The position numbers and the translations under genes were made by a program. A DNA stretch of 64,000 nt from Ophiura sarsii (taxonomy: Eukaryota; Echinodermata; Ophiuroidea; Amphilepidida; Ophiuridae): positions 15,190,462 to 15,254,461 of the forward strand of contig CM069448.1 of assembly GCA_035610835.1 (NCBI GenBank), given 5' to 3'. The notes under the pieces are model-generated. The model did not search any database. It saw only the letters and a program-made list of their open reading frames with translations, and was not told the origin of the DNA. This document shows positions 2,525-62,175 of the stretch, one piece after another (positions within the stretch are counted from its first letter, which is position 1; each line of letters begins with the position of its first letter).

Positions 2525-2803
2525 TATGTGACCTTTCATTATATACCAAAAATGGCGCCCCACTTGACTAAAACTGCCACCGTACATGTAGTTCCTAGTC
2601 TTGTAATGCTACATTTTAACAACATAAACACGATAAATGAACATGAAATATCCAGCGTGTATGTGTATCTTTCGGCTCACAAGAACTTAGCGATGAGATA
2701 TATCATGTTGCTGTTTCTTAAGTTAGCAATAATTACCATTAACAAACCTGGTTTGTGCAGGTTTTTGCCGTTAGAAAACGTATCGGTAATTAGCGTTTGG
2801 CTG

Positions 2804-2853
2804 TTTCTACTGGGCAACTTAACGTTAATTACCGTTAAGTTGCCCAGTAGAAA
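2804..2853. repeat. 21-bp perfect inverted repeat with 8-nt loop
   Basis: Left arm 2804-2824 (TTTCTACTGGGCAACTTAAC plus G) is exactly complementary to right arm 2833-2853. The motif also occurs in looser form near 1613 and 1700, so this is probably a terminal part of the surrounding element and not an independent RNA gene. Confidence 0.85.
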
Positions 2854-2871
2854 AACGCTTTTATAGACCAT

Positions 2872-3600: not shown

Positions 3601-3609
3601 ATGATACGT

Positions 3610-3760
3610 TCTATTCAACGGGCAAACAGACCTCTCAGGTAGGGTCGGTCGGTTGGTCAGGCGTTTGTTTTTCCCCAAAATTTTCGTGAACATTTTGAAA
3701 TTTTCAAAACAATTAAAAAAAATCAAAACATTTTCACAATATTTCAAAAACCGTTATCTT
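3610..3760. mobile_element. GACCTCTCAGGT repeat family, fragment
   Basis: The phrase CGGGCAAACAGACCTCTCAG followed by GGTCGGTCGGTTGGTCAGG belongs to a family seen again near 11672-11925, 20968-21000, 44118-44200, 56376-56980, 60485-60545 and 63520-63600. Fuller copies have ends of the type AACACCCTGTTGTACGGGC. This copy keeps one end plus poly(A)-rich interior. Confidence 0.6.
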
Positions 3761-3802
3761 GTATATCGTTTACAGTATACAGATAAAAACACACCCACAT
3801 GG

Positions 3803-4230
3803 GCTCTTTCATTTGAAATCTATACACCCTATGGAAGACATGACCTTAATTGTCTACACAGCAGGCCCGTAGGAAGGGGGGGGGCGATGGTGGCGATCGC
3901 CCCCCCTTTGAAAATCTTCCCCGGAAAATTTGTACACAGATGAAAAAATATCGCGCGCTACGCGCGCATTTGTCCTCCCAAAATGCAATATTCTTTGCTA
4001 CAACCTTGTTTAGAGCCAAAATGTACCTCGATCGTGCAAAAAATAGGTGCAAATTTGAAAATTTTTGCGCGCTACGTGCGCATATTTGACTCACAAAAAT
4101 CTTCCCGTGATTTTTTGGGGGAAAACGCCCCCCCCCCCCCCTTTGAAAAAAGTGTCTTACGGCCCTGCGCAGGGAGTGCAGATTTCAAATGGAGTCATCC
4201 ATTTGGTTTGGAATTCATACTCCCTTTGTG
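3803..4230. mobile_element. MITE related to the 11162-11328 copy, interrupted
   Basis: TTTGAAATCTATACACCCTA at about 3810 and the inverted TTTCAAATGGAGTCATCCAT after 4170 match the two halves of the intact MITE at 11162-11328. The join that should read CACAGGGAGTG is split by the insertion at 3862-4167. The outer right boundary is uncertain. Confidence 0.55.
3862..4167. mobile_element. hAT-like MITE nested in another MITE
   Basis: Ends are CAGGCCCGTAGGA on the left and, inverted, TCTTACGGCCCTG on the right, with G-rich and C-rich tracts just inside. CAG...CTG ends and this G-rich start resemble hAT MITEs. It splits a MITE whose intact sequence is known from 11162-11328. CACAG before and CGCAG after may be a decayed duplication. 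Two imperfect internal copies of GCGCGCTACGYGCGCAT occur at about 3953 and 4068. Confidence 0.6.
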
Positions 4231-4259
4231 GGGAAGATTAAACAAGCTTCTAAATAAGT

Positions 4260-4378
4260 AGGGGAGGAAAAAAGCAGAAGCTTCATTTATTTGCTGACAA
4301 GCCTGATTTGTTGACAGATCACCAGAGTACTTAGGATTCAATTTCACTCAATTAAATCAAGTATAAGACCTACCATAG
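4260..4378. other. left flank of a hAT insertion
   Basis: Contains GAGTACTTAGGATTCAATTT, which is imperfectly repeated near 4780 (AAGTACTCAGGATTCCATTT), so the region around the hAT insertion may itself be a duplicated or older repeat. Confidence 0.35.
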
Positions 4379-4584
4379 CAGTGGCGTAGTTAGGTTTTCC
4401 ATATTGGGGGGGGGGGGAGCGGGGCAGGGTCAAGAAATAAAACTGAACGTACAAAACCTTTACCGACAACTAATTTGACAGTCATATTCCATGATTCCCC
4501 TTGTCAACTATCTCAACCGACAAACTCATGATATTGGAGGGGGGGGGGGGGGGGGGGGACATTGTCCCTGTAGCTATGCCAATG
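4379..4584. mobile_element. hAT MITE with 8-bp target duplication
   Basis: The left end CAGTGGCGTAGTTAGG and the right end, inverted as CATTGGCATAGCTACAGGG, form a terminal inverted repeat typical of hAT elements (CAGTGGCGTAGC-type). The flanks are TACCATAG (4371-4378) and AACCATAG (4585-4592), a 7-of-8 match of the size expected for hAT. The interior has two long G runs (4408-4417 and 4539-4558). No coding capacity. Confidence 0.8.
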
Positions 4585-4592
4585 AACCATAG

Positions 4593-5915
4593 TGTTTGTT
4601 GGAATTGCATGGAAATTATGGTAGGGTAAAAATCCTTCCATTTTTCCATTATCAAAGTTATCATTGGTAGAGGAACCAAACAAAACAACTTTGTATCTGG
4701 CCTTATGGATTAGCATCTTACCAATTGTATGTTGACTGGCTGTGCACAAAGTTCTTCCTGTAGTCTACCTACTTGATCAAAGTACTCAGGATTCCATTTC
4801 ATGGGTCTTCAAGTATACCATGGTGGGGCTATAAGGTCAGCTATTATGTGCTATAGGGGCACTATTTCCCCTAATTCTAACTAACTGTCCCATTTTTCAC
4901 CCTCTGCTAACTGGATGACTTTTCTAAGGCATTTTTGGTAAATTTATGGGTCTAAAATCCTTAATGTTGCTGTTTTTCGCCGAAATGTTTGCAAAATCTG
5001 TCAAATCTATAGTAAATTATGGGTCTCCGGTAAACGTATGGGTTCATTTTCCCCCGAAAATTGGTAACTGTTTGGGTCAACTTTCATTTTGCTTGCAGCA
5101 CATCCCTACAAAAAGATATCCGAGTACACCCCCCTCGGGGGACGATTAGGACAGATATTTTGCAATCTTTATTATTAAATTATATTTTTTAGAATTATGA
5201 CTCTTAGATTTTCAAATGTTTGAGTCAGGCAGGATCAAACCATCAAACTTGTTATAGTTTAGGCCTGACTTTTAAATGTGAATTTCAAAACAGTCATGTT
5301 GAAAGCAACTGCGCCATAAAATATTCAGGCGTTATTAAGGAACTGAGTGGAGAGACATGTACCTCAAGCGTATTTATATGAATACTACAGTCGCAGTTGT
5401 TACGGTTGCAGTTTGCAGTTTTGAAGAAGAAAAAAATCTTTGTTGTTCAAATGTAGCGTCATGTTGAATAAAATATGAGATTACACTCTCTACACAGTAG
5501 CCTTCGGCCTTGTCATTTAAACCGTAGTTCAGTAACCATGGTTACTTGGAAAGACCCAGGACAAATCAATATTCCATGTTGGCTGAAGTATCTTCGTCAT
5601 GAGGCTAAACAAAAATAAGTGTGGTTTACGGAACCCCGATTAACTGTAAAACATCCTATATGACTTAAAACAATGAATCCATTGAATTATTTAATTTCAT
5701 TTTAATTGCCCCATTAAATAAGCCTCATGTGACCCACATGTATGTCACTATAGTTATGTTCTATCTTAATTTCTTTATGAGTTGAATAGTAGGACCCATA
5801 GTTATTGCAATTTTAACTTTAAAAAAAGGTTCATCTGCCAGACTGAGTAGTGACCCCATTTTTTCTAGAGTGTAAATGGAAACAAGCAATATTTTTTGTT
5901 TGACCTGACAGTGAA
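4593..5915. other. unannotated DNA
   Basis: No convincing gene or bounded repeat seen; a GCCTTCGGCC-rich hairpin-like phrase near 5500 is too short to interpret. Confidence 0.35.
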
Positions 5916-5916
5916 T

Positions 5917-6154
5917 TAGGCCAACAACAAAAAAAGTTGACTTGTCCTTTCCGACCGACTCGAATTTTCGGAAATCTAGGGTCGCTATTTTTTCTTTTCT
6001 TTCAAAAATCAAAAAGAAAAAACAACAACTTTAAAACGTGTTTTTGTGGAGTAAATTTTCAAAAATTAAAAAAAAAAAATCAAAAAAAAAATCCGACCGT
6101 CCGACCCTGACTTTGATCCTGAAAAGGCAAGTCATTTTTTGTTTGTTTGCCTTA
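5917..6154. mobile_element. poly-A/T MITE, GGCC-AACAAA terminus family
   Basis: Left TTAGGCCAACAACAAAAAAA then GTTGACTTGTCCTTTCC; right, inverted, GTAAGGCAAACAAACAAAAA then TGACTTGCCTTTTC. This matches the terminus style of the copies at 7791-8214 and 13698-14017. TA dinucleotides at both ends could be the target duplication. Internal CCGACCGACTCG and CCGACCGTCCGACCC are also inverted. Confidence 0.55.
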
Positions 6155-6588
6155 CTAGAAATGTATACAACAACTTCTTTTAATTAAAAAGACAACACCA
6201 TACAATATTGTGTCCTACATGCCTTTCCTTCCACATATTTGAGTAAAATGGCCTATTTGTTATATACTTTTCAGCTCTTGATAGACAAATAAGACCAAAT
6301 TTCCCCTGTGTTTGATGATGAATTTATGCGCACAGTTTTACAGATATATACATCATGTATATATATAATGGTGGTATGTATACTGTTCTGCTTTGTGAAG
6401 GGAAATGTAACAAATTTAGATGCATTCCTCAGGCTATTTCATACTTCAATTCATTTTATGTTTTGTATGAGTTAACGTTTAAAATACAGATTGTGTGTGA
6501 ATATAATTGTAAATACATGTAGAACAATTCATTTAAGAAACAACTGGAAGGAGAAATTAACATTTTTGATGTGTTGAGACGGCATAAT
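6155..6588. other. unannotated AT-rich DNA
   Basis: Contains short TATATA tracts (near 6345-6366); nothing else supported. Confidence 0.4.
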
Positions 6589-6589
6589 C

Positions 6590-7106
6590 TTAAAGCGGCA
6601 CTAAGAGATCCTTCATGGAGGGAGCCCTCAATTTTTTCAGAAGTTTGGTATTTCACATTACGTAATGCTTATATACGTACTAACTACCACCTAAAATTAC
6701 AGAGCTTAATTTGCAGTATTTCATGTGAAATTCATGGATTTGATAGCGTTTTGAGTTTTGATGTAAATCACATCGAAATTACCCAAATTCATCTAAAAGG
6801 CCACGGATGGCTTCTTACTTATTTGTTTCATGTTTATTCAAAATAACCTTAAAGACCGCCCATGGCTTGTTGCATGATGTATAGTCATGACCTCCCTGAT
6901 TCAATTGGTAGTAATTTTTAACCAAAATGCAAAAAAGGGAAAGCACTAAATACCTTCGGAAATGCTGAGAAAATGTCTTTATTTTTCATTTTAACTGATT
7001 TTTTTAAAAGAAATCTTACATGAAAGGGTTTCTATGTATCATATATCTAAACAAGGTAAAAAGGTTGAATTTCATTTTTTTAGAAATCTCTCTGTGCCCC
7101 ATTTAA
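6590..7106. mobile_element. TTAA-flanked MITE, diverged T2/Kolobok-like
   Basis: TTAAAGCGGCACTAAGAGAT on the left and, inverted, TTAAATGGGGCACAGAGAGA on the right define imperfect terminal repeats with TTAA at both ends. The next bases on the left (GAGCCCTCAATT) resemble the corresponding part of the element at 760 (TGCACCCTCAATT), suggesting a shared superfamily. The ends have diverged, so boundaries are less certain than for other copies. Confidence 0.55.
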
Positions 7107-7317
7107 TCTTAATCCCCCGCCTCACGGATTCCATTCTGTTTTAGCTTTGTATATTGTGCTGTCATATTTTGTGTAAGGCCCTTTTTACTTTGTACAGTAT
7201 AATAATATGTTGCAGTAAGATATAGTGTTTTTAGCGCTTTGACCACTTTTGATTAGGCGCTCAATAAATGCTGCTTATTAATATGGTTATGAGGCTATTT
7301 AATTGTCTGTAGTGAAA

Positions 7318-7395
7318 TGATGAAACAAAACTGCTGTCTACTGAAGAAAGTAAACAGACTGCTGTCTATTGAAGTCTTTTGTCAACTGAAAATCG
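7318..7395. repeat. degenerate CTATCTACTGAAGATAG motifs
   Basis: GTCTACTGAAGAAAG and GTCTATTGAAG occur here. Together with 7620-7760 and 8225-8245 they look like a decayed array of the palindromic core found intact at 35498-36215, now split by two MITE insertions. Confidence 0.55.
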
Positions 7396-7613
7396 TTAGG
7401 CAAAAAAAAAAGGTTTGTCTCAAATGACATGCGGTCTGCCAATTTTTTTTTCTTTCTTCAATTTAGACCTGATCGTCATTTGTTTGGCCAAAAAGTTGGA
7501 TTTGGCAAGATTTTTTTGAGAAAATTGAAAAAGAAAAAAAAAAACCACTAAAAAAAGGCTAACGCGGGCGAATTCGGGAATGCGTGCGGGTCATTTGAGA
7601 CAAATTTTTTTCT
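7396..7613. mobile_element. poly-A/T MITE, TTTGTCTCAAATGACATG family
   Basis: Ends AAGGTTTGTCTCAAATGACA and, inverted, AAATTTGTCTCAAATGACCC form the terminal repeat. The interior resembles 13244-13557 and 13698-14017 (shared TCAATTTAGACCTGAT, CAAAAAGTTGGAT, GGGAATGCG). No coding capacity. Confidence 0.75.
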
Positions 7614-7760
7614 TCTCCTTATCTATTGAAGATAGCGGTAATTGTCCTAAACAGTGAAATCCATATCTTTTGTCAACTGAAAACCGTTATCTATTAAAGA
7701 TAGCCTATAGCTGTTTCTACCTGGATAGCTATAACTGTTGTCTACTGAAGTTAGTAATCT
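7614..7760. repeat. degenerate CTATCTACTGAAGATAG motifs
   Basis: TATCTATTGAAGATAGCGG, TATCTATTAAAGATAGCC and GTCTACTGAAGTTAG lie at irregular spacing, with TTTTGTCAACTGAAAAYCGT repeated at about 7377 and 7668. This supports a diverged tandem repeat that has been interrupted. Confidence 0.6.
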
Positions 7761-7790
7761 TTTGAACATGGCTATATATTCTTCCTACGA

Positions 7791-8214
7791 TAAGGCCAAA
7801 CAAAATAAAAGGTTCGTCTCAAAGCTTGCGCGCGCATTGGTTTTGAAATGCCAAAATACCGCGTCTGAAATGCAGAAAATTGTCAAATCAATTTTTTTTT
7901 CCCTACAAATTTTTATTTCGAGTTTTTATTAAAAATATCGGCAGATTTTCCTTTTCTCAAACTTTTACATGACTCAGTTCTTCAAAAAACGCTGCACAAT
8001 TGTTCTTATACACAACTACATCACAATATTCATTTCAAATAGAAAAAACAAATATCAGAAAGTGTCAACGGTTGCAAATAGTAAGAGTAAAAATTGCCAC
8101 ACAAATAAAAAAAAATGTAAAAAAAGAAAAAATGGAAGACAAAAACAGCGCGCGTCGCCCGATTTTGAAGCCTTCGCAAGCTTTGAGACAAACTTTTTTG
8201 TTTTGTTTGGCCTA
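7791..8214. mobile_element. GGCCAAACAAA-terminus MITE, 424 bp
   Basis: Left TAAGGCCAAACAAAATAAAA then GGTTCGTCTCAAAGCTTGCG; right, inverted, TAGGCCAAACAAAACAAAAA then GTTTGTCTCAAAGCTTGCG. The terminal repeats exceed 35 bp. TA dinucleotides flank both ends, as for Tc1/mariner-type insertion, though the class is not proven. Overlapping AT-rich ORFs inside have no recognisable protein sequence. Confidence 0.8.
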
Positions 8215-8960
8215 ACAAATCGTCATCCAATGAAGATAGTAAATCTGATGTTACTGATTGTATATTGTAGATTGCTAAAGCTAGTTTTACCACAGATAGC
8301 AAATGTCATCCATTTGTTCTTGTTAAGGGTAATTGAGGATAGGAAGCTTGTTTCTCTGGACCCAAACACTATGCATAAGTTTTTGTTCATGGGAACACCA
8401 TCAAAATAGTGGTATGGACAGTGACAAAATATGCTTTTTTAATCAAATTTACCCCTTGAACAACCACAATAATTGATACACTCCTGGAATTTAAATACCC
8501 ATAATTGAAACGTTTAAGAGTGTAAAGTAAACAGAATACGGATGCTGATGTCTGCGAAGATTTTAATTTTTTAAGTATCATAAAAAATACTGAACAATAT
8601 AAATTTCCCAAAGGGCCTCCTTTTTTACTTTCTAAGAAAAAGTGTGTTTTGTGTGTGTTTTTGGTACACACTGATACACACGCGTTTATTATAGAGAATA
8701 TTAGAATGAAATATTTTCTAATAATAGTGCTGTTTGAAAATATTTAGCATCAACAATTACAGTATGAATTGCATGAAGTTTATGTGTACCTTGACCCTAA
8801 GAACAAGCTAATTAAATACAGTGGTGTGTGCAATGCAATTAAGGGAATGATAATTAGATTGTACTCTGTAATTGTTATATCACTCAGCAATTATAAGCAA
8901 AGTACACATACACGCCTAGCTATAAGCATAATATCTATAGGGGGGAGGGGGGGGGGGGGT
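8215..8960. other. unannotated AT-rich DNA
   Basis: No supported gene. TTTTTGGTACACACTGATACACACGC near 8660 and TAGCTATAAGC near 8910 are unremarkable. A G-rich tract spans 8941-8959. Confidence 0.4.
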
Positions 8961-24562: not shown

Positions 24563-25691
24563 ACATCTCACAATGCTCTCTTCTGAAAAGAGTATCATAG
24601 GCTATCTTCTGAAGATAATATGAATTATCTTCTAAAGATAGCATTATGAGATATCTCCTGAAGATATCATTGTGAGATATCTTCTGAAGATAGTATAATG
24701 AGCTATCTCCGGAAAATAGCATTATGAGCTATCTCCGGAAAATAGCATTATGAGCTATCTTCTAAAAATAGCATAATGAGCTATCTTTTAATGATATCAT
24801 TACGAGCTATCTTCTGAAGATAGCATTATGAGCTATCTTCTGAAGATAGCATTGTGAGCTATCTTTTGAAGATAGCATTGTGAGCTATCTTCTGAAGATA
24901 GCATTATGAGCTATCTTCTGAAGATAGCATTGTGAGCTATCTTTTGAAGATAGCATTGTGAGCTATCTTCTGAAGATAGCATTATGAGCTATCTTCTGAA
25001 GATAGCATTGTGGACTATCTTATGAAGATATCATTATGAAATATCTTCTGAAGATAGCATTATGAGCTATCTTCTGAAGATAGCATTGTGAGCTATCTTT
25101 TGAAGATAGCATTGTGAGCTATCTTCTGAAGATAGCATTATGAGCTATCTTCTGAAGATAGCATTGTGAGCTATCTTTTGAAGATAGCATTGTGAGCTAT
25201 CTTCTGAAGATAGCATTATGAGCTATCTTCTGAAGATAGCATTGTGGACTATCTTATGAAGATATCATTATGAACTATCTTCTGAAGATAGCATTATGAG
25301 CTATCTTATGAAGATATCATTATGAACTATCTTATGAAGATATCATTATGAGCTTTCTTCTGAAGATATCATTATGAGCTATCTTCTGAAGATAGCATTG
25401 TGAGCTCTATCTTCTGAAGATAGCATTGTGAGCTCTATCTTCTAAAGAAAGCATTGTGAGCTCTATCTTCTGAAGATAGCATTGTAAGCTCTATCTTCTG
25501 ACAATAGCATTGTGAGCTATCTTCTGAAGATAGCATTGTGAGCTATCTTCTGAAGATATCATTATGAGCTATCTTTTGAAGATATCATTATGAGCTATCT
25601 TCTGAAGATAGCATTAAGAGCTATCTTCTAAAGATATCATTGTGCGCTATCTTCTAAAGATAGCATTGTGAGCTATCTTCTGAAGATAGCA
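24563..25691. repeat. 26-bp satellite-like array, about 43 copies
   Basis: The unit is GAGCTATCTTCTGAAGATAG plus CATTRT. Each unit holds the palindromic core CTATCTTCTGAAGATAG. Higher-order structure is visible: the variant TGGACTATCTTATGAAGATA recurs at 25011 and 25245, a 234-bp (9 x 26) step, so multi-unit blocks have been duplicated. Units near 25390-25500 carry an extra CT and are 28 bp long. ORFs in it are by-products. Confidence 0.95.
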
Positions 25692-26394
25692 TAAGATGAA
25701 GATCATCATCATTACAGTCATAATTTGTATCAGGTGGTTCATATCTATAGTCTGTGTTGATGTTAGTTTTAGACCTTAAATTGGCCTCATCAGAACCTTA
25801 ATATTGGAAGCATAGGCATGCTAGCCAACGCTGGACAAACTAACTGACATGAGCACCACAGCCCCTGGGTGTGCGAAGCTAGTGCTGTATATCTGTGAAT
25901 ACAATACTTAACCATTATGAAAATGTTAGCATAGGTTTGAGTCTAAAGGAAATGCCAACTGACAAGAAAATGCTCATGTCCCGGCTCATGGATTGTAGAT
26001 ACATGATAACAACACTAGGAGTTCAATGCCGTTCATAAAAGCATTAACGAGGGTATTAAAACACGCCGTTGTATTTGACGGAAATCACCATGGGCCGATT
26101 CTCACAACATCGTGACTTTAACTCATATGCCTTTGGGGAACATGATTGCAATTTAAGCCGTACATTTTGTTGGATAACGATCTAAATCAAATCCATGGTG
26201 GTGATGAAGTAAAAGCTTTGCTCGTGATGTGCTTGCGGTTTGCCTCATAATGTGTCCATATGTTAAGGTGTAAGCACGGAGGGATCGAGATAAAATCCAG
26301 CATGTATAGACATTAACCATCAGAAATGTGCTTAATGGGGATTTAAAGCTGTCTTTCAGCACGTGTACTTAATCCCAGAGGGAATGAAAACCTA
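25692..26394. other. spacer between two arrays, unannotated
   Basis: About 0.7 kb of apparently unique sequence. A 69-codon minus-strand ORF (26153-26362) has no recognised domain. Confidence 0.4.
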
Positions 26395-27305: not shown

Positions 27306-27477
27306 ACAGTAAGTATCACCTTTTGACAGATTGTTAGTTCAGAGTAACAATGTTCTTTCACATAATGGTGTAGGCTCTATTGGTTCACTGTATATTAACC
27401 ATTAAATGGTTAACTAAACTAGCACATATACTTTTATTAATGCCATTTACCAAGTTACCAAACTATATATATTTTGT
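27306..27477. other. short spacer between arrays
   Basis: Unique-looking AT-rich sequence; CCATTAAATGG palindrome near 27399. Confidence 0.4.
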
Positions 27478-30450
27478 AACTCTTCATACTATATTCAGAT
27501 GATAACTCTTCATAATATCTTCAGAAGATAACTCTTCATACTATATTCAGATGATAACTCTTCATACTATATTCAGATGATAACTCTTCATAATATCTTC
27601 AGAAGATAACTCTTCATACTATCTTTAGAAGATAACTCTTCATACTATATTCAGAAGATAACTCTTCATACTATCTTCAGAAGATAACTCTTCATACTAT
27701 ATTCAGAAGATAACTCTTCATACTATATTCAGATGATAACTCTTCATAATATCTTCAGAAGATAACTCTTCATAATATATTCAGAAGATAACTCTTCATA
27801 CTATCTTCAGAAGATAACTCTTCATAATATATTCAGAAGATAACTCTTCATACTATATTCAGATGATAACTCTTCATAATATCTTCAGAAGATAACTCTT
27901 CATACTATATTCAGATGATAACTCTTCATAATATCTTCAGAAGATAACTCTTCATACTATATTCAGAAGATAACTCTTCATACTATATTCAGATGATAAC
28001 TCTTCATAATATCTTCAGAAGATAACTCTTCATACTACTCCAGAAGATAACTCTTCATACTATATTCAGATGATAACTCTTCATACTATCTTCAGAAGAT
28101 AACTATTCATACTATCTTCAGACAATAACTCTTCATACTATATTCAGAAGATAACTCTTCATACTACAGTGTTTTCACTCACCCTATACAAAGGGTGAAA
28201 TACCCTTCACTTTTGATTTTCACCCTTCAAAATTTTTCTCAAGAGTGAAAAATGTTGACAATTTCATTGTTTTACTGCCCAAAACACTGCGCGAGCACAC
28301 GGTTTGGCCATCATTACGGTTTTTCACCCTTGAGAAAAAAGCCCAGTGAAATTGCTGTACTATCTTCAGAAGATAACTCTTCATACTATATTCAGAAGAT
28401 AACTCTTCATACTATATTCAGAAGATAACTCTTCATAATATCTTCAGAAGATAATTCTTCATACTCTCTTCAGAAGATAACTCTTCATACTATCTTCAGA
28501 AGATAACTCTTCATACTATCTTCAGAAGATAACTCTTCATACTATCTTCAGAAGATAACTCTTCATACTATATTCAGAAGATAACTAGAAGATAACTCTT
28601 CATACTATATTCAGAAGATAACTCTTCATAATATCTTCAGAAGATAACTCTTCATACTATATTCAGAAAATAACTCTTCATACTATCTTTAGAAGATAAC
28701 TCTTCATACTATCTTCAGAAGATAACTCTTCATACTATATTCAGATGATAACTCTTCATATTATATTCAGATGATAACTCTTCATACTATATTCAGAAGA
28801 TAACTCTTCATACTATCTTCAGAAGATAACTCTTCATAATATCTTTAGAAGATAACTCTTCATACTATCTTCAGAAGATAACTCTTCATACTATATTCAG
28901 ATGATAACTCTTCATACTATATTCAGAAGATAACTCTTCATATTATATTCAGATGATAACTCTTCATATTATATTCAGATGATAACTCTTCATACTATAT
29001 TCAGATGATAACTCTTCATACTATCTTCAGAAGATAACTCTTCATACTATATTCAGAAGATAACTAGAAGATAACTCTTCATACTATATTCAGAAGATAA
29101 CTCTTCATAATATCTTCAGAAGATAACTCTTCATACTATATTCAGAAAATAACTCTTCATACTATCTTCAGAAGATAACTCTTCATACTATATTCAGATG
29201 ATAACTCTTCATATTATATTCAGATGATAACTCTTCATACTATATTCAGAAGATAACTCTTCATAATATCTTCAGAAGATAACTCTTCATACTATATTCA
29301 GAAAATAACTCTTCATACTATCTTTAGAAGATAACTCTTCATACTATCTTCAGAAGATAACTCTTCATACTATATTCAGATGATAACTCTTCATATTATA
29401 TTCAGATGATAACTCTTCATACTATATTCAGAAGATAACTCTTCATACTATCTTCAGAAGATAACTCTTCATAATATCTTTAGAAGATAACTCTTCATAC
29501 TATCTTCAGAAGATAACTCTTCATACTATATTCAGAAGATAACTCTTCATATTATATTCAGATGATAACTCTTCATACTATATTCAGATGATAACTCTTC
29601 ATACTATCTTCAGATGATAACTCTTCATACTATCTTCAGAAGATAACTCTTCATACTATCTTCAGAAGATAACTCTTCATACTATATTCAGATGATAACT
29701 CTTCATAATATCTTCAGAAGATAACTCTTCATACTATATTCAGATGATAACTCTTCATATTATATTCAGATGATAACTCTTCATAATATCTTCAGAAGAT
29801 AACTCTTCATACTATATTCAGATGATAACTCTTCATATTATATTCAGAAGATAACTCTTCATAATATCTTTAGAAGATAACTCTTCATACTATCTTCAGA
29901 AGATAACTCTTCATACTATATTCAGATGATAACTCTTCATACTACTCCAGAAGATAACTCTTCATAATATCTTTAGAAGATAACTCTTCATACTATCTTC
30001 AGAAGATAACTCTTCATACTATCTTCAGAAGATAACTCTTCATACTATATTCAGAAGATAACTCTTCATAATATCTTCAGAAGATAACTCTTCATACTAT
30101 ATTCAGATGATAACTCTTCATATTATATTCAGATGATAACTCTTCATGATATCTTCAGAAGATAACTCTTCATACTATCTTCAGAAGATAACTCTTCATA
30201 ATATCTTCAGAAGATAACTCTTCATACTATATTCAGATGATAACTCTTCATATTATATTCAGATGATAACTCTTCATAATATCTTTAGAAGATAACTCTT
30301 CATACTATCTTCAGAAGATAACTCTTCATACTATCTTCAGAAGATAACTCTTCATACTATATTCAGATGATAACTCTTCATACTATTTTCAGATGATAAC
30401 TTTTCATAATATCTTCAGAAGATAACTCTTCATACTATATTCAGAAGATA
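27478..30450. repeat. 26-bp satellite-like array, over 100 copies
   Basis: The unit is TATCTTCAGAAGATAACTCT plus TCATAC; variants have TATATTCAGATGATAA. The palindromic core TATCTTCAGAAGATA is closely related to that of the 24563 array, though the spacer bases differ. An out-of-phase join (ATAACTAGAAGATAAC) occurs near 28583 and again near 29060, evidence of block duplication. A 191-bp transposon interrupts it at 28167-28357. Confidence 0.95.
28167..28357. mobile_element. 191-bp transposon inside the satellite
   Basis: The ends CAGTGTTTTCACTCACCC and, inverted, CAGCAATTTCACTGGGC are flanked by TACTA on both sides (28162-28166 and 28358-28362). Internal CACCCTT and AAGGGTGAA phrases are inverted. 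CAG...CTG ends suit hAT or CACTA-type elements, but a 5-bp duplication fits neither cleanly, and the array background makes its exact length uncertain. Confidence 0.8.
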
Positions 30451-33450: not shown

Positions 33451-35497
33451 GAGGCTTTTGTCAGCAGTCTGCATTTCAAGACTTGAGGAAGTAAAGCATG
33501 AAGAAAAAAACCAGAAAGAAATAACAGAATTTTCACTTGCTATTGTAGCAAGCACAGTGCCATTTTAAAGCTTACTGCATGAAAATAAAATCTCAATGTT
33601 AGGCTATATTAAAACAATATTTTGTCTCAAAGCTCCCTCGCACGTTAGTTAATTGGTGTGCGTTAGAAGAAGGGGGAAAAAGGAAAATTAAAAAAAAAAT
33701 CCTAAAGTTTCACAGATTTTTCAGATTTTCATTGATCACATCATTTTAAATACAAAAGGTCACTTTTACAAGGATTTCAATATTTTATATTTATAAAAAT
33801 AAATAAAAAAAAGATTTTTTTAAATAGCCTTATGTGACATTTCACATATATACATGTAGGTTAGTCATGGTGAAAAGTAATTGATTTTGGAGGATTTTGT
33901 TAAAGATTATTTTCAAGTCTTATTTTCCAGGGTATCTTTTATCAATATTTAATGACAATGAAATATAAATTTGAATTCAACTATTTCAAGAAATGCCTGA
34001 ATTTGAACGAGCGTCTTTCACGAAAAATAAGAATACAGATTTGGATGAACCTTGTGTCTGTATATATATTATATAGAGTGTGAAATATATTTGCTATTTA
34101 TCAAAACAAGAGTCTCCCTTATGTGCCACTCTAATGGGTCACCTTGTTTTTGCAAAAATCTGTAAACATGGGGGTATGGGTTATGTTGAAAACCCCTAAA
34201 TATGGGTCCCAAATCGCAAAAAAATTTGCAAACATGGATCCCAAATCGCAACATCGCAGACAAATCTGTAAAATCTGCCATTTCTTGAGGTAAAACACCC
34301 CTAAGAGTGGGTAAAGATTTCAAACCTCCAGCAGCACTCCAACGTCAAAAAATAATATGAGTATGATCTATTTAGGGCCACTCCGATTTTTTTTTCACAT
34401 TTTTTTTAAACAGTTTAAATGGCATTGAATATTAAATTTAGTGTTTATAACATATATGTGCGACTCTCAGAGTGATTTCAACTTCTTGTTGGCTGAACTT
34501 TGAGCTTCTGCTGGTAAAAGGGAAAAAAAAATCAGAAAAAAATCCGCCCGCCCGCCCCTCCTCTCTGAAAGCTGTGGAGGACAACATAACAAAAAAAATT
34601 TGTTGCCTAATCCAGAGTGCCTGTCCAAACGACAATCTTAGCCTTGAGTCTATCGAAACAACAGCTGTAGCTTCGATACTAGCTCAAGGTCCTACAGTTC
34701 TCCGATTGCCGGAAATATATGTGTTGGCCCTTTGCTAATTTTGAAAATTTCACTCAAGGTTAACATTGTTGAAGGTTACACATGGCATACATGCTCTCGA
34801 CTTACTCTCGGTTAGTGAATCGGGATTAGTTAACCGCTAGATTTCATAGGTTAAAATTCCAGATTTAGACTCGAGGTTAGTTAACCATGACACGATTCTC
34901 ACAGCTGTTAACTGAGAGTTTAGTCTCGGGTCTAGCTAATCTCTAGCTTAGCTCCCATCGTCGGAACGCTCCTATAGTTTCATTTGTGCACTGATAGGCA
35001 AAGAGTTCTATTCAAGATGCTTAAATTATCAACATCTTCACCAATCAAGATGAATGTGCAGTGAGACAAATGAGATTTATCGCCAAGGTTACTGCATCCT
35101 GATGTCTCATCACCTAGGTAACCTGTGTCTCATGGCCAAGGTGATTATGTTGCATTATTGCACTGTGCGTTATATAATGCGATTTAACTTGTGATAAGGT
35201 GTCCATCTTGACCTTCAAGGATGGATAGGTCAAACTCCTATATGAACGTCTTAATCGTAAGCAAAGTAGAAACAGACATCGCAGTACTATTTTTCACATC
35301 AATTTTAACCAAGAAAGATGTTAAAATGGTATTTTTTATTTTGATGCATTTTTTCTGTCATTATAAAGCATGTTTATGATTCTATCACCACCAATAACTG
35401 GTTATTGATGGTGATTGGTGGTGATAATCATAATAATAATTATGAGCAAATGATGAGTGTGATGTTGTAGAAAACTACAAAACAAGAAATCAAACAT
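33451..35497. other. unannotated DNA
   Basis: GTCTCAAAGCTCCCTCGCAC near 33625 resembles the left end of the MITE at 7791 but no right end is clear. Multiple GGTTAGTTAACC-like phrases occur at 34810-34940. AATAACTGGTTATTGATGGT near 35391 forms a short inverted repeat. Nothing else supported. Confidence 0.35.
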
Positions 35498-36215
35498 AGC
35501 ACATAAAATGCTATCTACTGAAGATAGCAAAGGGCGGCATATTTCAAACTATGACACATACAATGCTATCTACTAAAGATAGTGAGGAGTTGTATATTGC
35601 AAACAAGACTCATAAAATGCTATCTACTGAAGATAGCAAAGGGCGGCATATTCCAAACTATGACACAAAATGCTATCTACTGAAGATAGTGAGGAGTTGT
35701 ATATTGCAAACATGGCACATAAAATGCTATCTACTAAAGATAGCAAAGAGCGGCATATTCCAAACTATGACACATAAAATGCTATCTACTGAAGATAGTG
35801 AGGAGTTGTATATTGCAAACAAGACACATAAAATGCTATCTACTGAAGATAGCAAAGGGCGGCATATTCCAAACTATGACACATAAAATGCTATCTACTG
35901 AAGATAGTGAGGAGTTGTATATTGCAAACAAGACACATAAAATGCTATCTACTGAAGATAGCAAAGGGCGGCATATTCCAAACTATGACACATAAAATGC
36001 TATCTACTGAAGATAGTGAGGAGTTGTATATTGCAAACATGGCACATAAAATGCTATCTACTGAAGATAGCAAAGGGCGGCATATTCCAAACTATGACAC
36101 ATAAAATGCTATCTACTGAAGATAGTGAGGAGTTGTATATTGCAAACATGGCACATAAAAAGCTATCTACTTAAGATAGCAAAGGGCGGCATTTTCAAAA
36201 CTATGGAACATGAAA
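35498..36215. repeat. dimeric ~109-bp satellite-like array
   Basis: Alternating half-units share CATAAAATGCTATCTACTGA then AGATAG. One continues TGAGGAGTTGTATATTGCAA, the other CAAAGGGCGGCATATTCCAA. The dimer step is 109 bp (107 in one case), with about six dimers. The core CTATCTACTGAAGATAG is in every half-unit. ORFs up to 111 codons are by-products. Confidence 0.95.
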
Positions 36216-37328
36216 TTAAATTTATTTTAAACTAGCAATGGGTATACTCATTGGAAAGTAAAGCACATCAATGCTATCTTCAGTGATAGCATTTTTTAAT
36301 TAATTAGTCTCAGTATTTTGGTGTGTTTGTTATAAGATGTGATTGATTGAACATTGGTTTATGATCCCTCCCATTTGCTAGGAAATGTACATGTATGTTG
36401 ATTCTGTTACCATAGTGGGTTCCTGACGAATTGTGTGGATATATAACAACGGAGATGAGTTTTTTGTTTGCAGGTGAATTGACCAGACTTAATTACTATC
36501 TTATCGTGACTATGATGGATGTATGCCAGTATGCTAGGGTAATTTTGCTATTTTTATATGAGGTTAACCAGGAGTGTGAAGTGAATTACAATATGTTGTT
36601 TGGCATCTGAAAGGAGAATTGATAGCTATGTCTTGTCCTAGAATCCTAAAATCCTTGGATACATTTTTAACTGACATACGTGTATTAAAGTTTAGCTCTT
36701 GATTAAAATGGACATTTTTTTGTATCAGAACTTGTCAATAGTTGGAATTTGGAATTTGACTTGAAATTGGAAAAAGGGATATTTTATGGAAAGGAACCAT
36801 AACTTATTATAAATTACCCTTATATAAAGCTCTTCAGTATCACTTATTACTACAGAAACCCTATGCTGGTAGCCCTTGCTTTCTTATTGTACATAATGGC
36901 AAGCTATGTACGTATGCACTCACAAAAACTTTGCTGTTCATAGCAAACCCATGTGACATAGTGGTCAGGGACTGGAACTCCCTTACCACCTGCCCATGTT
37001 GATTCCATTATAAGAGATCCCCCAGTATTATAGGCCATGTTTTTCCCCTGATAGATTAATTCCCAACACAACAGTGGTCTGTGTAATTGTTGGAGCATTA
37101 TTTTTCAATTGGACAATAATTGTGCTGGTTTAATAGATGATGTTACAACAAGGTTACAATGTTTATTCCATATTGAAAAACATGTTCCAACAATTCTCAA
37201 ACCACAGTATGTGAGTTAAAGGGGAAGCTTGGGATGTTTAGTTGATTTTTGCGTAAAAATGAGTTTGTGTCTTCCAGATCTAAATGTGGTCTACTTGGAG
37301 ACTAAATTGAACAATTGCATACACTATA
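36216..37328. other. unannotated DNA
   Basis: A small hairpin with a related core lies near 36269 (AATGCTATCTTCAGTGATAG). Otherwise nothing supported. Confidence 0.4.
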
Positions 37329-48775: not shown

Positions 48776-49680
48776 AGGAATAGGCTTCCAAGTATATTAA
48801 ATAAATGGCAGATTGTATATATAGATATGTTGTTACTAAAACTGGATGAGATGAAAAAGTCTTGTCCGATGGAAATGTCATGCCTGGTGTAAAATTTGGC
48901 CAACAGTATCCAACTAATATCAGACAGGAGAGTGTACAATTTTGCTTAATTCATTTTTCGTTTTTATATTAAAGCCTGTCTGTCCTTTTTAATCCAATTT
49001 CACACTTGTTTTTGTCAGTGTTTTCCCCCTTTTCATTGCTCATTTTTACAACTTCACAAATGTTACATCTTTATTTCCTTTCATAATGTTATTTTCTGTC
49101 ATTGACTATGGAATTGCTATGGCAACCATAAGCTAGTAAATATGATTCAGAAACGACCGGAGGCTATAAGTGTTTGTTGTTTTTTGTTCAGATATTTCCA
49201 ATTCGCTTTTGGGTAGATATGTTCCAACTTTTAATCAAGCAATGTATCTAAAGGATGTGCGTAGTTATTGCCGAAGATGTATTTGGGAAGTAATTCTATA
49301 AAGGGTGAATCAAAGAAATTGTGCATGTATTGTATTGAAACGACCATTTTACCTTGATGTGTGCAATAAACCATGAAATTGGTGTTGTTTTTATAAAGCA
49401 TATTTGATATATTTCATCTTCCGAAAAATGAAAGAAATCTACTGAAAATTAAGCAAAGTGTGACAAGCTTTTTTAAGCTGACCTCTTTTTCACAATTCCA
49501 ATGGGATTTACCCAGTTAAGACATAGCATGATGAAATGGAGTGAGTGCTCACTTCATGCATTTATTGTGATACTGGCAGAGTAAATGAGGTACAATTCAC
49601 ACAAAAGTGTTTAAAATGTTGCATAATTTAATAGTTATGAGAATGTACCATAGCAATAGCATATCAACATATTGCACACA
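48776..49680. other. unannotated AT-rich DNA
   Basis: Left flank of the large palindrome; nothing supported. Confidence 0.4.
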
Positions 49681-50429
49681 TTAAGAGTGACTTTTTTCTA
49701 GATTGACAAACTTTTGGACACACATTTTTTAGATTTTGCTTAAAGTTGGGGAGATGAAAGACATTTAGTAGTTATTTAAAAATATGGTATTAAAAAATTC
49801 AGCAACCCTCTGTTGCCATGGTTACGAGCCTATCTTGTTTTAGGTCATTTTAGGGGGAAATTCTCCTAATTATACTGATTTCAGCAACGAAAAGAGTCAA
49901 AGTTTGGCAGAACCGTACACCAAGGTGGTACATGTTTTGCCCAAACTGACTTCATGAATGAGTTGCCCTATCTCTGGTCTAACAATCAACCGATTTAAAT
50001 AAGTCAGTGTTGCCATATTGATACCCTGTTGCCATGTTCAAATATCACATTTTGAGGACGTTGAAAAAGTCAGATATTACTAACCGACTTCGGGTTGCTA
50101 CAGTTCCTCTCGAGGTGATTTGTTTTTCTTCATGTTTTGTTTTTATAACAAGGACCTATTACCCTTTGAGTTAATTCAAGAAAAAAAATGGGGAAACCCA
50201 GCACTAACGTATCACGTGACCTGAAGTCACATGATCCAATTTACGGGAAATTGCATAGCCGGGTATATATGGGGGGTTACCGTGCACCACCAGTACTCCC
50301 CTAAACAACTTTTTTTTAACTTCCTTTCATTGTCTGTAAACATATTTAGTATATTACCAAAATAATTTTGGTATGCTAAGGGGTTATTCAACATGGCGTC
50401 GAAAATGGCCGCCAAATGGTCAAATTTCC

Positions 50430-51050
50430 TAAAATGACATTATATCAATCAAACTCGGGATCAAAATGTACGGTAAAAGTATAGTTTTAATAGTGGGACG
50501 TATGTATTAGACCACTAGACACTCATATCGAGTACTTTTGCTTTGTTAACATACCTAAATTCAAGATGGCCGCCAAAATGGCTGCCAAAAATGCTAAAAT
50601 TCCATACATTCAGCATATATCAGCCCTACATGTATGATCAGAGTATAGTTTTAACAATGGGATATAAGTGTTAGACTCCTAAAAGCTCATATGCGGCATT
50701 TTTGTTTTGCTTACTAATCTTAAATCCAAAATGGCCGCCAGAATGATGGCCAAAATTGGTCAAAAGTCCATAAAATGACATAATATTAACAAAATGAATG
50801 ATGAAAATAGTTTTTAACAATGGGATGTATTTATTATATCACTAGTAACTCATATTCAGTATTTTTGCTTTGTTAACATACTTTAAATCCAAAATGGCTG
50901 CCAAAATGAGTCCCAAAATGGCTGCTAAAATTGCCAAATTCCATAAGATAGGATAATAACAACCAGAATGTATGATGAAAATATATTAACAATGGGATGT
51001 ATGTATTATAGTACTATCTATTTTTGCTTTGTAATAACTTCTGGATGATA
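50430..51050. repeat. 165-bp tandem subrepeats in the left arm
   Basis: TGGGAYGTATGTATTA-type phrases at 50494, 50659, 50822 and 50994 (steps of 165, 163 and 172) each precede TTTTGCTTTGTTAACATAC and AAAATGGCYGCCAAAATG. About four diverged copies. CAAGATGGCCGCC-like phrases are common in animal repeats. Confidence 0.85.
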
Positions 51051-51126
51051 CATCACATTTAGCCATCTACTTCATATCGAACTTATATCCAACACTATTT
51101 AATGGAAGCAACTAATAACTATCCCA

Positions 51127-51691
51127 TTACAAGCTACAGGGACATTTCTCAAGGTAGTCTTTCAGTTTCATTGAGTAGGTATTTTTCTGTCGTTTATCCG
51201 CTGACAGAGATATCTCGATGCCAAGGCTTTCACAACATGATCTAAGAAGCTGCAACTTAGCCTTTTGCAAGTTGCCACTTCTATTAAGCTCACACAAAAA
51301 TTGGCTCCACTGCAAATAACTGGATGATCGATGGGTATACTACTGTCCATAGCGGCACTTATTTCTGATACAATAATATCATGCGTACTTTCAAATGCCG
51401 CTGCCTTTAGATCATTCTCATCATCGACGCTCAGTTTACGCTTGGATGCCAGTCGGGAAAAATAGCCAGAAATTTGCTGGAACGTGAGGAATTCGTTAAG
51501 TTGAAACAATTGTGTCCCATCTGGGCCTCTGACAAACTGCATCTGCTTTGCAACCAGGTTTGCATCCGCTTTAGCACTTTTGTTAATTTCTCCCTCCCTG
51601 AACCTTTCGTTAAGGTATGGTGTTTGCTTGTTAGAAAAGCGTGCTGATTTTTTTTTTTTTCAGTGCCCAACCTTTTGGGCAGCTTGGATAT
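51127..51691 (-). pseudogene. captured homeodomain-like gene fragment, left-arm copy
   Basis: Minus-strand coding-like sequence with the same order as the right-arm copy: RFSNKQ, YLNERFREGE, VAKQMQFVRG, LFQLNEFLTFQQI, YFSRLASKRKL, then an acidic stretch. Relative to the right copy it has two extra bases in a T run near 51296-51303, which shifts the frame after SGAN and destroys the C-terminal part. An A/T run at 51649-51661 also differs between the arms. No initiation codon is preserved. It cannot encode the same C-terminus as its partner. Confidence 0.7.
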
Positions 51692-51738
51692 GATTTAGAT
51701 ATGTTTGATGGAGCAAATGCCACTTTATTAGTGACACA
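51692..51738. other. unique spacer at the palindrome centre
   Basis: The only part of the element present once. Read on the plus strand it is open and continuous with the right-arm gene fragment (MFDGANATLLVTQ then PSCPKGWALK), so it is probably the 5' part of the captured coding sequence left unduplicated when the palindrome formed. Confidence 0.7.
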
Positions 51739-52305
51739 ATATCCAAGCTGCCCAAAAGGTTGGGCACTGAAACAAAAACAAAAAAATCAGCACGCTTTTC
51801 TAACAAGCAAACACAATACCTTAATGAAAGGTTCAGGGAGGGAGAAATTAACAAAAGTGCTAAAGCGGATGCAAACCTGGTTGCAAAGCAGATGCAGTTT
51901 GTCAGAGGCCCAGATGGGACACAATTGTTTCAACTTAACGAATTCCTCACGTTCCAGCAAATTTCTGGCTATTTTTCCCGACTGGCATCCAAGCGTAAAC
52001 TGAGCGTCGATGATGAGAATGATCTAAAGGCAGCGGCATTTAAAAGTACGCATGATATTATTGTATCAGAAATAAGTGCCGCTATGGACAGTAGTATACC
52101 CATCGATCATCCAGTTATTTGCAGTGGAGCCAATTTGTGTGAGCTTAATAGAAGTGGCAACTTGCAAAAGGCTAAGTTGCAGCTTCTTAGATCATGTTGT
52201 GAAAGCCTTGGCATCGAGATATCTCTGTCAGCGGATAAACGACAGAAAAATACCTACTCAATGAAACTGAAAGACTACCTTGAGAAATGTCCCTGTAGCT
52301 TGTAA
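51693..52305 (+). pseudogene. captured homeodomain-like gene fragment, right-arm copy
   Basis: A plus-strand reading contains CPKGWALK, then after a frame change in an A-rich run (51770-51788) KSARFSNKQTQYLNERF, REGEINKSAKADANLVAKQM, FLTFQQISGYFSRLASKRKL, an acidic stretch, and a final part LQLLRSCCESLGIEISLSA to a stop at 52303-52305. From memory, a module with GWALK followed by RF..Q..YL...F..GE, VA..M, L...QI..FFSRLA.K occurs at the C-terminus of large zinc-finger proteins of cnidarians, molluscs and echinoderms, and its helices look homeodomain-like. No start codon is seen and one frame change is present, so this is a retained gene piece and not a complete gene. The C-terminal ~50 residues are not recognised. 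Identical order in both arms shows capture came before, or with, palindrome formation. Confidence 0.65.
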
Positions 52306-52384
52306 TGGGATAGTTATTAGTTGCTTCCATTAAATAGTGTTGGATATAAGTTCGTTATGAAGTAGATGGCTAAATGTGATGTAT

Positions 52385-53000
52385 CATCCAGAAGTTTTTA
52401 CAAAGCAAAAATAGATAGTACTATAATACATACATCCCATTGTTAATATATTTTCATCATACATTCTGGTTGTTATTATCCTATCTTATGGAATTTGGCA
52501 ATTTTAGAAGCCATTTTGGGACTCATTTTGGCAGCCATTTTGGATTTAAAGTATGTTAACAAAGCAAAAATACTGAATATGAGTTACTAGTGATATAATA
52601 AATACATCCCATTGTTAAAAACTATTTTCATCATTCATTTTGTTAATATTATGTCATTTTATGGACTTTTGACCAATTTTGGCCATCATTCTGGCGGCCA
52701 TTTTGGATTTAAGATTAGTAAGCAAAACAAAAATGCCGCATATGAGCTTTTAGGAGTCTAACACATATATCCCATTGTTAAAACTATACTCTGATCATAC
52801 ATGTAGGGCTGATATATGCTGAATGTATGGAATTTTAGCATTTTTGGCAGCCATTTTGGCGGCCATCTTGAATTTAGGTATGTTAACAAAGCAAAAGTAC
52901 TCGATATGAGTGTCTAGTGGTCTAATACATACGTCCCACTATTAAAACTATACTTTCACCGTACATTTTGATCCCGAGTTTGATTGATATAATGTCATTT
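52385..53000. repeat. 165-bp tandem subrepeats in the right arm
   Basis: Mirror image of the left-arm subrepeats: CATACATCCCATTGTTAA, AATACATCCCATTGTTAAAA, ATATATCCCATTGTTAAAAC and CATACGTCCCACTATTAAAA, with GGCGGCCATTTTGGATTTAA between. Confidence 0.85.
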
Positions 53001-53751
53001 TAGGAAATTTGACCATTTGGCGGCCATTTTCGACGCCATGTTGAATAACCCCTTAGCATACCAAAATTATTTTGGTAATATACTAAATATGTTTACAGAC
53101 AATGAAAGGAAGTTAAAAAAAAGTTGTTTAGGGGAGTACTGGTGGTGCACGGTAACCCCCCATATATACCCGGCTATGCAATTTCCCGTAAATTGGATCA
53201 TGTGACTTCAGGTCACGTGATACGCTAGTGCTGGGTTTCCCCATTTTTTTTCTTGAATTAACTCAAAGGGTAATAGGACCTTGTTATAAAAACAAAACAT
53301 GAAGAAAAACAAATCACCTCGAGAGGAACTGTAGCAACCCGAAGTCGGTTAGTAATATCTGACTTTTTCAACGTCCTGAAAATGTGATATTTGAACATGG
53401 CAACAGGGTATCAATATGGCAACACTGACTTATTTAAATCGGTTGATTGTTAGACCAGAGATAGGGCAACTCATTCATGAAGTCAGTTTGGGCAAAACAT
53501 GTACCACCTTGGTGTACGGTTCTGCCAAACTTTGACTCTTTTCGTTGCTGAAATCAGTATAATTAGGAGAATTTCCCCCTAAAATGACCTAAAACAAGAT
53601 AGGCTCGTAACCATGGCAACAGAGGGTTGCTGAATTTTTTAATACCATATTTTTAAATAACTACTAAATGTCTTTCATCTCCCCAACTTTAAGCAAAATC
53701 TAAAAAATGTGTGTCCAAAAGTTTGTCAATCTAGAAAAAAGTCACTCTTAA

Positions 53752-53854: not shown

Positions 53855-54190
53855 CAATGCTACGAAGCTTTATTGGTATCATTTCGTGTCGCGCCTTCGT
53901 CTCGCGTATCGCGGCCCGAAATCTCGTATCGCGTGTTTCGTATCGCGACCCCGAAATTTCGCGTAAAAGATTTATACCACGAAATCTCGGGTCGCGATAC
54001 GAACACGCGACACGAGATTTCGGGCCGCGATACGAGATTTCGCATTGCGGCCCGAAATCTCGCGTAAGAGATTTGCCGCGTATCGCGGCCCGAAATCTCG
54101 CGTCGCGTGTTCGTGGCGCGGCCCGAGATTTCGTGGTATAAATCTTTTACGCGAAATTTCGGGTCGCAATACGAACACGAAATTTCGACC
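53855..54190. repeat. CpG-dense inverted-repeat block (CGAAATCTCGGG family), copy 1
   Basis: Dozens of CGCGATACG, CGAGATTTCGGG and CCCGAAATCTCG phrases in both orientations. A long inverted repeat pairs CGCGTAAAAGATTTATACCA (then CGAAATCTCGGG) near 53962 with its exact inverse ending near 54154. The left edge CGAAGCTTTATTGGTATCAT then TTCGTGTCGCG is shared, reversed, with the copy at 61960-62175. ORFs in all frames here are by-products of RDFGPRYE-like repetition. Confidence 0.85.
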
Positions 54191-57544: not shown

Positions 57545-58906
57545 CACTGTCTACTGAAGATAGTAACATGTTACTGCAGTTGGATATTGATATCTTCAGT
57601 AGATAGTAACATGTCACTGCATTGGGATATTGTTATCTTTGTTACTGAAGATACCAATATCCCAATGCAGTGACATGTTACTGTCTACTGAAGATAGTAA
57701 CATGTCACTGCATTGTGACATTTATATCCTCAGTAGATAGTAACATGTCACTGCATTGGTATATGGCTATCTATTGAAGATAACAATATCCCAATGCAGT
57801 GACATATTACTTTCTACTGATTATAGTAAAAATGTCCACTGCATTGTAACATTTATATCCTCAGTAGTAACATGTCACACTGCATTGGTATATGGCTATC
57901 TATTGAAGATAACAATATCCCAATGCAGTGACATGCTACGGTCTACTGATGATTGTAACATGTCACTGCATTGTGACATTTATATCTTCAGTAGATAGTA
58001 AGATGTCATTACTTTGGTATGGCCATCTACTGAAGATACCAATATCCGAATGCAGTGACATGTTACTGTCTACTGAAGATAGTAACATGTCACTGCATTG
58101 TGACATTTATATCTTCAGTAGATAGCCATATACCAATAAAGTGACATATTAATATCTACTGAAGATAACAATATCCAATGTAGTGACATGTTACTGTCTA
58201 CTTAAGATAGTAAAATGTCACTGCATTGTGACAATTATATCATCAGTAGATAGCCATATACCAATGCAATGACATGTTACTATCTACTGAAGATAACAAT
58301 ATCCCAATGCAGTGACATGTTACTATCTTCTGAAGATTTCAATGTCCCAATGCAGTGACATGTTACTATCTACTAAATATATTAATATCCTACTGCAGTC
58401 ACAAGTGACATGTAACTATCTACTGAAGATACCAAAGCCCAAATGCAGTGACTACTGTCTACTGAAGATAGTAACATGTCACTGCATTGTGACATTTATA
58501 TCCTCAGTAGATCATGTCACTGCATTGGTATATGGCTATCTATTGAAGATAACAATATCCCAATGCAGTGACATGCTACTGTCTACTGATGATTGTAACA
58601 TGTCACTGCATTGTGACATTTATATCTTCAGTAAGATGTCATTGCATTTGTCATTGCATTGGTATGGCCATCTACTGAAAATACCAATATCCGAATGCAG
58701 TGACATGTTACTGTCTACTGAAGATAGTAACATGTCACTGCATTGTGACATTTATATCTTCAGTAGATAGCCATATACCAATAAAGTGACATGTTAATAT
58801 CTACTGAAGATAACAATATCCAATGTAGTGACATGTTACTGTCTACTGCAGATAGTAAAATGTCACTGCATTGTGACAATTATATCATCAGTAGATAGCC
58901 ATATCT
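57545..58906. repeat. array of alternating inverted ~30-60-bp units
   Basis: Units of the form CTACTGAAGATAGTAACATG then TCACTGCATTG alternate with inverse units (CAATGCAGTGACATGTTACT). TATCTTCAGTAGATAG and CTACTGAAGATAG are the related palindromic core. Larger blocks recur (57896-58135 resembles 58520-58775). ORFs up to 152 codons are by-products. Confidence 0.9.
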
Positions 58907-61959: not shown

Positions 61960-62175
61960 ACGAGATTTCGCTATTCAAAATGCGAAATTTCGTGATACAA
62001 AAACTCGAGATTTCGGGGCGAAACACGAAATTTCGGGGCGAGATTTCGGGGTCGCGATACGAGATTTCGGGTCGCGATACGAAATTTCGGGGCGCGAGAC
62101 GAAATACGCGACACGAGATTTCGGGTCGCGACACGAAATACGCGACACGAAATGATACCAATAAAGCTTCGTACA
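61960..62175. repeat. CpG-dense CGAGATTTCGGG block, copy 2 (reverse orientation)
   Basis: Repeated CGAGATTTCGGGGCG, CGCGATACGA and CGCGACACGAAA phrases; the right edge (CGCGACACGAAATGATACCA then ATAAAGCTTCG) is the reverse of the left edge of the 53855 block. It sits in AT-rich surroundings. Confidence 0.85.

Follow-up and report, generated by a model that had tools for sequence, protein, structure and literature searches.

Evidence for a non-autonomous palindromic transposon composed of two inverted right ends of a TTAA-inserting parent element in the ophiuroid Ophiura sarsii

Introduction

Foldback transposons, including Galileo, Tetris and Tm1, are described as carrying long, variable inverted ends with internal tandem repeats (PMC4168063; Tetris, PMC4079207; Tm1, PMC3169594), and the recruitment of internal sequence into the ends has been reported for Galileo (PMC4168063). 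In maize, a single locus, Mu killer, silences MuDR; it contains a mudrA segment of about 1.3 kb derived from the TIRA side, and a hairpin of about 4 kb was proposed for it (PMC3440606). Kolobok elements, in turn, follow a rule of TTAA duplication and 5'-RR/YY-3' ends, with a C/DxxH motif between the second and third catalytic residues (PMC9587614) and a THAP domain as a usual component of the transposase (PMC6004289). Here we describe a 4.07-kb palindrome bounded by TTAA in a 64,000-nucleotide stretch of the Ophiura sarsii genome (assembly GCA_035610835.1, contig CM069448.1, positions 15,190,462 to 15,254,461; hereafter the window), the assembly comprising 1.57 Gb in 748 contigs. The palindrome is very probably a non-autonomous transposon made of two inverted right ends of a 7.9-kb TTAA-inserting parent element, which formed once and is now found at 10 loci.

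Structure and mobility of the palindrome

Self-alignment resolved the palindrome into two inverted arms, at window positions 49681-51691 and 51739-53751. Of 2009 aligned bases, 1997 are identical and 12 mismatched, and the alignment contains two gaps, one of 2 nt and one of 4 nt. A single-copy spacer of 47 bp (51692-51738) separates them, and these coordinates reproduce exactly those of the original prediction, which had been made from the letters of the window. As also predicted, TTAA is the limit of arm similarity on both sides, with the flanks outside the arm alignment; the two copies, at 49681-49684 and 53748-53751, were assigned as a target-site duplication from the arm alignment and the comparison of ends across copies. 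We judge a 2-kb inverted repeat at 99% identity to be far beyond chance. The two 2.0-kb arms fill most of the 4.07-kb element, a foldback-like layout, and an Rfam scan at gathering scores returned no match in the window.

A genome search for further copies had been set beforehand as a test of the prediction. Using a 301-bp query (window 49600-49900, which covers the outermost 220 bp of the arm plus 81 bp of flank), 40 of 832 candidate places were scored, so that the copy numbers from this search are lower bounds. All 40 matched this left-edge query, the window's own two ends being counted among them, and many formed inverted pairs 3.9-4.4 kb apart. The copies examined number 21, namely the window element (WIN) and 20 further genomic stretches. 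Both ends are present in 18 of them, with TTAA on both sides in 17 and ATAA on both sides in L018, which indicates that the four bases are a duplicated target lying outside the element. L023, L027 and L028 show one end only within the stretch examined and fall outside the two-ended counts. A search for the central junction with a 96-base query returned 15 candidates, all of which were scored, and placed the junction at 10 loci, eight over 96/96 bases and two over 78/96.

Fold-back reads are a familiar artefact of long-read libraries, and an assembly or library artefact of this type could produce a palindrome. The presence of the same junction at 10 loci with differing flanks, together with arm-specific substitutions common to the copies, leaves this explanation with a negligible probability.

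Uninterrupted target sites were also recovered. L010 lies within a tandem array, an intact unit of which agrees at 83/84 bases with the two L010 flanks fused at a single TTAA. The joined flanks of L022 match an uninterrupted unit at 84/84 bases, and those of L014 match all 40 scored loci (of 1163 candidates) over all 184 bases at 99-100%. For L018 no close uninterrupted unit was found, the best matching at 50/84 bases. At the window site, 38 other loci match the joined flanks across the junction at 76-82% (40 matches were scored of 205 candidates, two of them the element's own flanks), and five of these relatives, when aligned, are continuous at the insertion point and carry ATGA (four) or AAGA (one) instead of TTAA. 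The anticipated empty sites hence exist for L010, L022 and L014, but the window site itself is represented by more distant relatives, without TTAA in the five examined. By its terminal inverted repeats, fixed-length target duplication and empty sites the element belongs to class II (cut-and-paste type), and the shared junction, target duplication and empty sites substantiate the earlier proposal of a TTAA-inserting, foldback-like mobile element.

In one further case, L014 (C17:41453829) and L021 (C19:62853513), two different elements of the family, occupy the same TTAA of a repeat that is present at both places, the two repeat copies aligning at 94-95% over 415 bp on the left and 937 bp on the right. 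Coincidence is a plausible explanation, since the hosting repeat has 1163 candidate places, of which 40 were scored.

The 7.9-kb parent element

L019 is a 7.9-kb element (positions 681-8587 of its stretch) with TTAA at both ends and inverted ends of ~0.8 kb that are 94% alike. It contains a gene of which four blocks (2946-3332, 4001-4732, 5005-5136 and 5249-7138) align to a coral protein, and amphioxus, sea-anemone and second coral proteins align to the same blocks or parts of them. All four exon blocks are free of stops, and GT or AG is found at the five exon edges adjoining the matched blocks. The WIN arms are 99.2% identical to the right end of this element (8587-6528 and 6577-8587) and, over the shared outer part only, 93.5-93.8% identical to its left end. 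The left arm, on the minus strand and continuous with the spacer (the s arm), corresponds to L019 8587 to 6577, reversed, and the right arm, on the plus strand (the n arm), to 6577 to 8587. The spacer, present once per palindrome and also on the minus strand, is a piece of the parent gene (about L019 6530-6576), and the palindrome breakpoint at window 51739-51740 fuses parent position 6528 to 6577 with 2 nt of microhomology.

The coding sequence of the arms is the C-terminal part, ~190 codons, of the parent's own putative transposase gene, and is continuous with the rest of that gene in L019. In the n arm it forms an open frame at 51709-52305 (plus strand), with a homeodomain-like part and a tail that is weakly SAP-like in relatives; in the s arm a 2-nt insertion at 51296-51297 splits the equivalent region (51127-51659, minus strand) into two frames. 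Homeodomain-like serves here as a description only, and no Pfam family was detected in the n-arm open reading frame (ORF). The original prediction had further attributed this sequence to a host gene captured by a foldback transposon, in agreement with the discussion in PMC3169594 of capture by foldback and Mutator-like elements, and with the absence of a Pfam family in the n-arm ORF and the presence of a chance-level one only in the s-arm ORF. In L019, however, the same coding stretch forms the 3' end of a larger gene, which itself lies within an element bounded by TTAA, and homologous proteins keep the order of conserved D region, C2H2 finger and homeodomain-like tail. Host-gene capture was rejected once the L019 gene had been read, and we regard it as very improbable. 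The search for an intact parent gene that had been proposed did yield a longer, stop-free gene, but located in a transposon.

Two additional elements are related to L019. L037 is a second full-length copy, about 96% identical, with TTAA ends and a gene containing stops, and L038 is an older, broken relative that is 76-93% identical in pieces. In the close class (98% identity or more), the 13 two-ended copies comprise 12 right-end palindromes and one full-length element, and no left-end-derived palindrome was found among these 13. L021, L022, L024, L025 and L026 constitute a related older family of 3.7-5.7-kb elements with the same tips and internal tandem repeats, in which 1.4-kb inverted ends are about 92% alike in four of five members, L022 being rearranged. 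Among the three scanned for ORFs, L021 and L024 contain none of 100 aa, and L022 contains only two, of at most 111 aa and well inside the element. These five elements show the more usual foldback-like state.

Subterminal tandem repeats of a 163-bp unit containing a CCAAAATGGC motif were observed in both arms of the window element (2.7 units at 50481-50923 and 2.8 units at 52513-52967), as well as in L021-L028 and L033-L036, and seem to be expanded in the older subfamily. By analogy with the internal tandem repeats of foldback ends, they might serve as enzyme-binding sites. In L023, around positions 3951-3960, an n-type right arm is joined to a piece resembling a more divergent family end; this copy looks like a chimera, a non-palindromic derivative whose far end was not found in the stretch examined.

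The putative transposase

A protein database search with the L019 protein returned 338 matches at E <= 0.001, the best 120 of which include proteins from Branchiostoma, corals, anemones and a crinoid. These homologues (P0001-P0120) form a family that is widespread in marine animals and environmental contigs and lacks a Pfam entry of its own; its members combine invariant D residues with a C2H2 finger and a homeodomain-like tail. D108, D192, D221 and D233 (P0003 numbering) are invariant in 73 homologues; three of these four residues fall in the motifs DWAMK, DNAGC and CDR, with a distance of 41 residues between the latter two. On these sequence features the L019 protein looks like a DDD transposase.

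Searches of known domains for the superfamily in Pfam and among PDB sequences returned zinc-finger, weak SAP and chance-level matches. No Pfam family was found in the three L019 ORFs at E values up to 10. A profile search of PDB sequences detected the C2H2 finger (best E 3.9e-5) and one further chain at E 0.024, the matched part of which we take to be a SAP domain. The Pfam SAP family itself matches nine of the 73 homologues, weakly, and DUF7869 matches one of the 73 at E 0.0046 and overlaps weakly with the conserved D region of two named relatives.

A single origin and subsequent spread

In contrast to the 10 loci that share the central junction, L019, L017, L037 and L038 have the gene but not the junction. 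An alignment of 24 arms was assembled, and a tree was inferred from 23 of them, L023 being dropped. Several columns distinguish the arms: column 528 separates all 10 n arms (G) from all 10 s arms (A), G at columns 1960 and 1970 occurs in all nine s arms having the site and in no n arm, and column 1374 is A in eight of 10 n arms. In addition, L011, L013 and L016 are united by one private letter at column 529 of the s arms and a second at column 1802 of the n arms, a pattern that joint movement of the two arms of a copy would produce. In the tree, one branch separates the 10 s arms from the 10 n arms (support 88/93; present in 200/200 bootstrap trees and in 0/500 shuffles).

The sorting of variants by arm, and the private letters that travel together, show that this palindrome formed once, acquired arm-specific changes and was then copied as a whole. 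Gene conversion keeping the arms alike was considered and largely rejected, as the majority of informative columns group the sequences by arm instead of by copy. Singleton substitutions average 1.7 per arm of ~1990 bp across the 20 arms, which points to a recent spread. Central deletions have occurred after formation, one of them common to L014 and L015 and another in L013.

Recurrent formation of right-end palindromes

Two other palindromes derive from the same right end. Their arms measure 3.0 kb in L017 and 377 bp in L020, and their breakpoints, at 5537/5555 and 8183/8211 respectively, differ from each other and from that of WIN (6528/6577). The joints overlap by 1 nt in L017 and by 2 nt in L020 and WIN, as read by eye, the first row of the L017 alignment being one base out of register.

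The one-end composition of these elements, their short loop and the 1-2-nt microhomology favour fold-back priming at a broken end. A break inside the parent's gene would be followed by resection of the end, the resected strand would fold back at an inverted microhomology of 1-2 nt, and synthesis out to the terminus would leave an inverted dimer bearing two right ends. In yeast, a foldback mechanism has been reported for inverted insertions at breaks (PMC11724301), as have hairpin-capped intermediates arising via template switching (PMC10766183). We consider it somewhat more probable than otherwise that fold-back of a broken right end produced the inverted dimer. A full-length copy such as L019 would then provide transposase in trans, and this enzyme would cut both right ends and paste the unit into a new TTAA; that the parent's enzyme moves the palindrome is suggested by the identity of ends and target.

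Alternatively, the palindromes might arise in place, during gap repair after excision, if the new left end switches to the inverted right end and both sides copy the latter. Defective Galileo copies resulting from repair and template switching are discussed in PMC4168063, and the two ends of L019, which first differ at 74 bp, do so at only four places in the outer 400 bp. Gap repair of this kind predicts a left-type patch at one tip, and such a patch was not seen from 74 bp inward in four elements (at four sites only in the short L020). In WIN, L009, L017 and L020, both arms carry the right-end letter at nearly all of the left/right differences compared (60 of 175 columns). Two columns depart from this: L017_a has a letter of its own at one, and at column 793 every arm shows the left-end letter, for which a change private to L019 is the best reading. 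Formation by gap repair, with the switch falling in the outer 74 bp, is the less likely of the two routes.

A number of observations weigh against an origin from two right ends of a transposase-encoding parent, followed by spread as a unit. The identification of the transposase rests on the conserved D, D, D positions and the element layout, without Pfam support, and only one stop-free gene copy was seen, in L019, the second full-length copy, L037, having stops. The support of the branch between s and n arms lies under the tool's own mark, the bootstrap is unsettled and 14 of 20 inner branches are weak. Several columns depart from the arm pattern: the n-arm letter at column 1374 is absent from L014 and L015, L016 carries T at column 1764 in its two arms alike (which may reflect gene conversion), the letter at column 654 is common to L015_s and L017_a, and columns 2010/2014, in an A/T run, are noisy. 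Finally, a template switch in the outer 74 bp is indistinguishable from fold-back.

Other repeats in the window

Tandem arrays occupy window positions 24575-25692, 27477-30450, 35491-36216 and 57546-58904, with units of 26, 52/78, 109 and 129 bp. Inspected by eye, these separate arrays seem to have in common a self-complementary core resembling CTATCTTCWGAAGATAG. Short repeats of the CGCGATACGAAATTTCGGG type, both inverted and tandem, are found at 53902-54163 and 61961-62153, one set lying 150 bp from the element.

Comparison with known systems

Among the open-access papers listed by literature searches (Repbase reports being outside the search), no account was found of a TTAA transposon family in which palindromes of one end, bearing the transposase 3' end, have been amplified. 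The present family resembles Kolobok in its TTAA duplication and in 5'-RR...YY-3' ends (here GA...TC), but no THAP domain was identified by Pfam in the three L019 ORFs, with an unrecognised 5' exon being possible, and the third invariant acidic residue is D here. A piggyBac transposase domain was absent from the Pfam results of the L019 ORFs and from the 25 families listed, out of 60, for the 73 homologues. Sola3 elements, reportedly described by Bao and colleagues in 2009, are said to combine a DDD transposase with TTAA duplication, features that the present family may share.

Like foldback elements in the accounts cited above, the family has long inverted ends with internal tandem repeats, and non-autonomous copies of such elements are thought to be mobilised in trans. 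Galileo, as presented in the same source, differs in belonging to the P superfamily and in having 7-8-bp target duplications, whereas here the target is TTAA; moreover, the palindrome described here is nearly perfect, its centre spans 47 bp and each arm includes the 3' end of the gene. The stepwise birth of a foldback-like element can be followed from the parent through three one-end palindromes with mapped breakpoints to central deletions and the spread of one of them.

Mu killer, as described in PMC3440606, likewise contains part of a transposase gene duplicated in inverted orientation and flanked by two copies of one terminal repeat, the transposase being putative in the present case. Read-through transcription of the palindrome could, hypothetically, yield a ~2-kb hairpin against the parent's mRNA, so that if the hairpin and small-RNA part of the original prediction were true, the target would be the transposon's own gene and not a host gene. 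It is conceivable, though doubtful, that the palindrome acts as a mobile silencer like Mu killer, its hairpin-derived small RNAs repressing the parent or its arms producing a dominant-negative C-terminal protein. The preponderance of 12 palindromes over one full-length element in the close class agrees with such repression, but the same ratio is expected of any non-autonomous element, and for Mu killer itself PMC3440606 favours short antisense transcripts over the read-through hairpin first proposed. The protein variant was set aside as unlikely, since the n arm lacks an ATG before the homeodomain-like part and the s-arm frame is broken by a change readable in eight of 10 s arms. Similarly speculative, and in our view improbable, is a self-propagating "jumping Mu killer", in which the parent would repeatedly shed 3'-end palindromes that move with its transposase and, at sites of transcription, yield double-stranded RNA against that enzyme, the family thereby seeding its own silencing. 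The Ophiura palindrome differs from Mu killer in carrying the 3' end of the gene and in having spread to 10 loci. It offers a natural, multi-copy test bed for asking whether palindromic derivatives silence their own parent, as one such locus does in maize.

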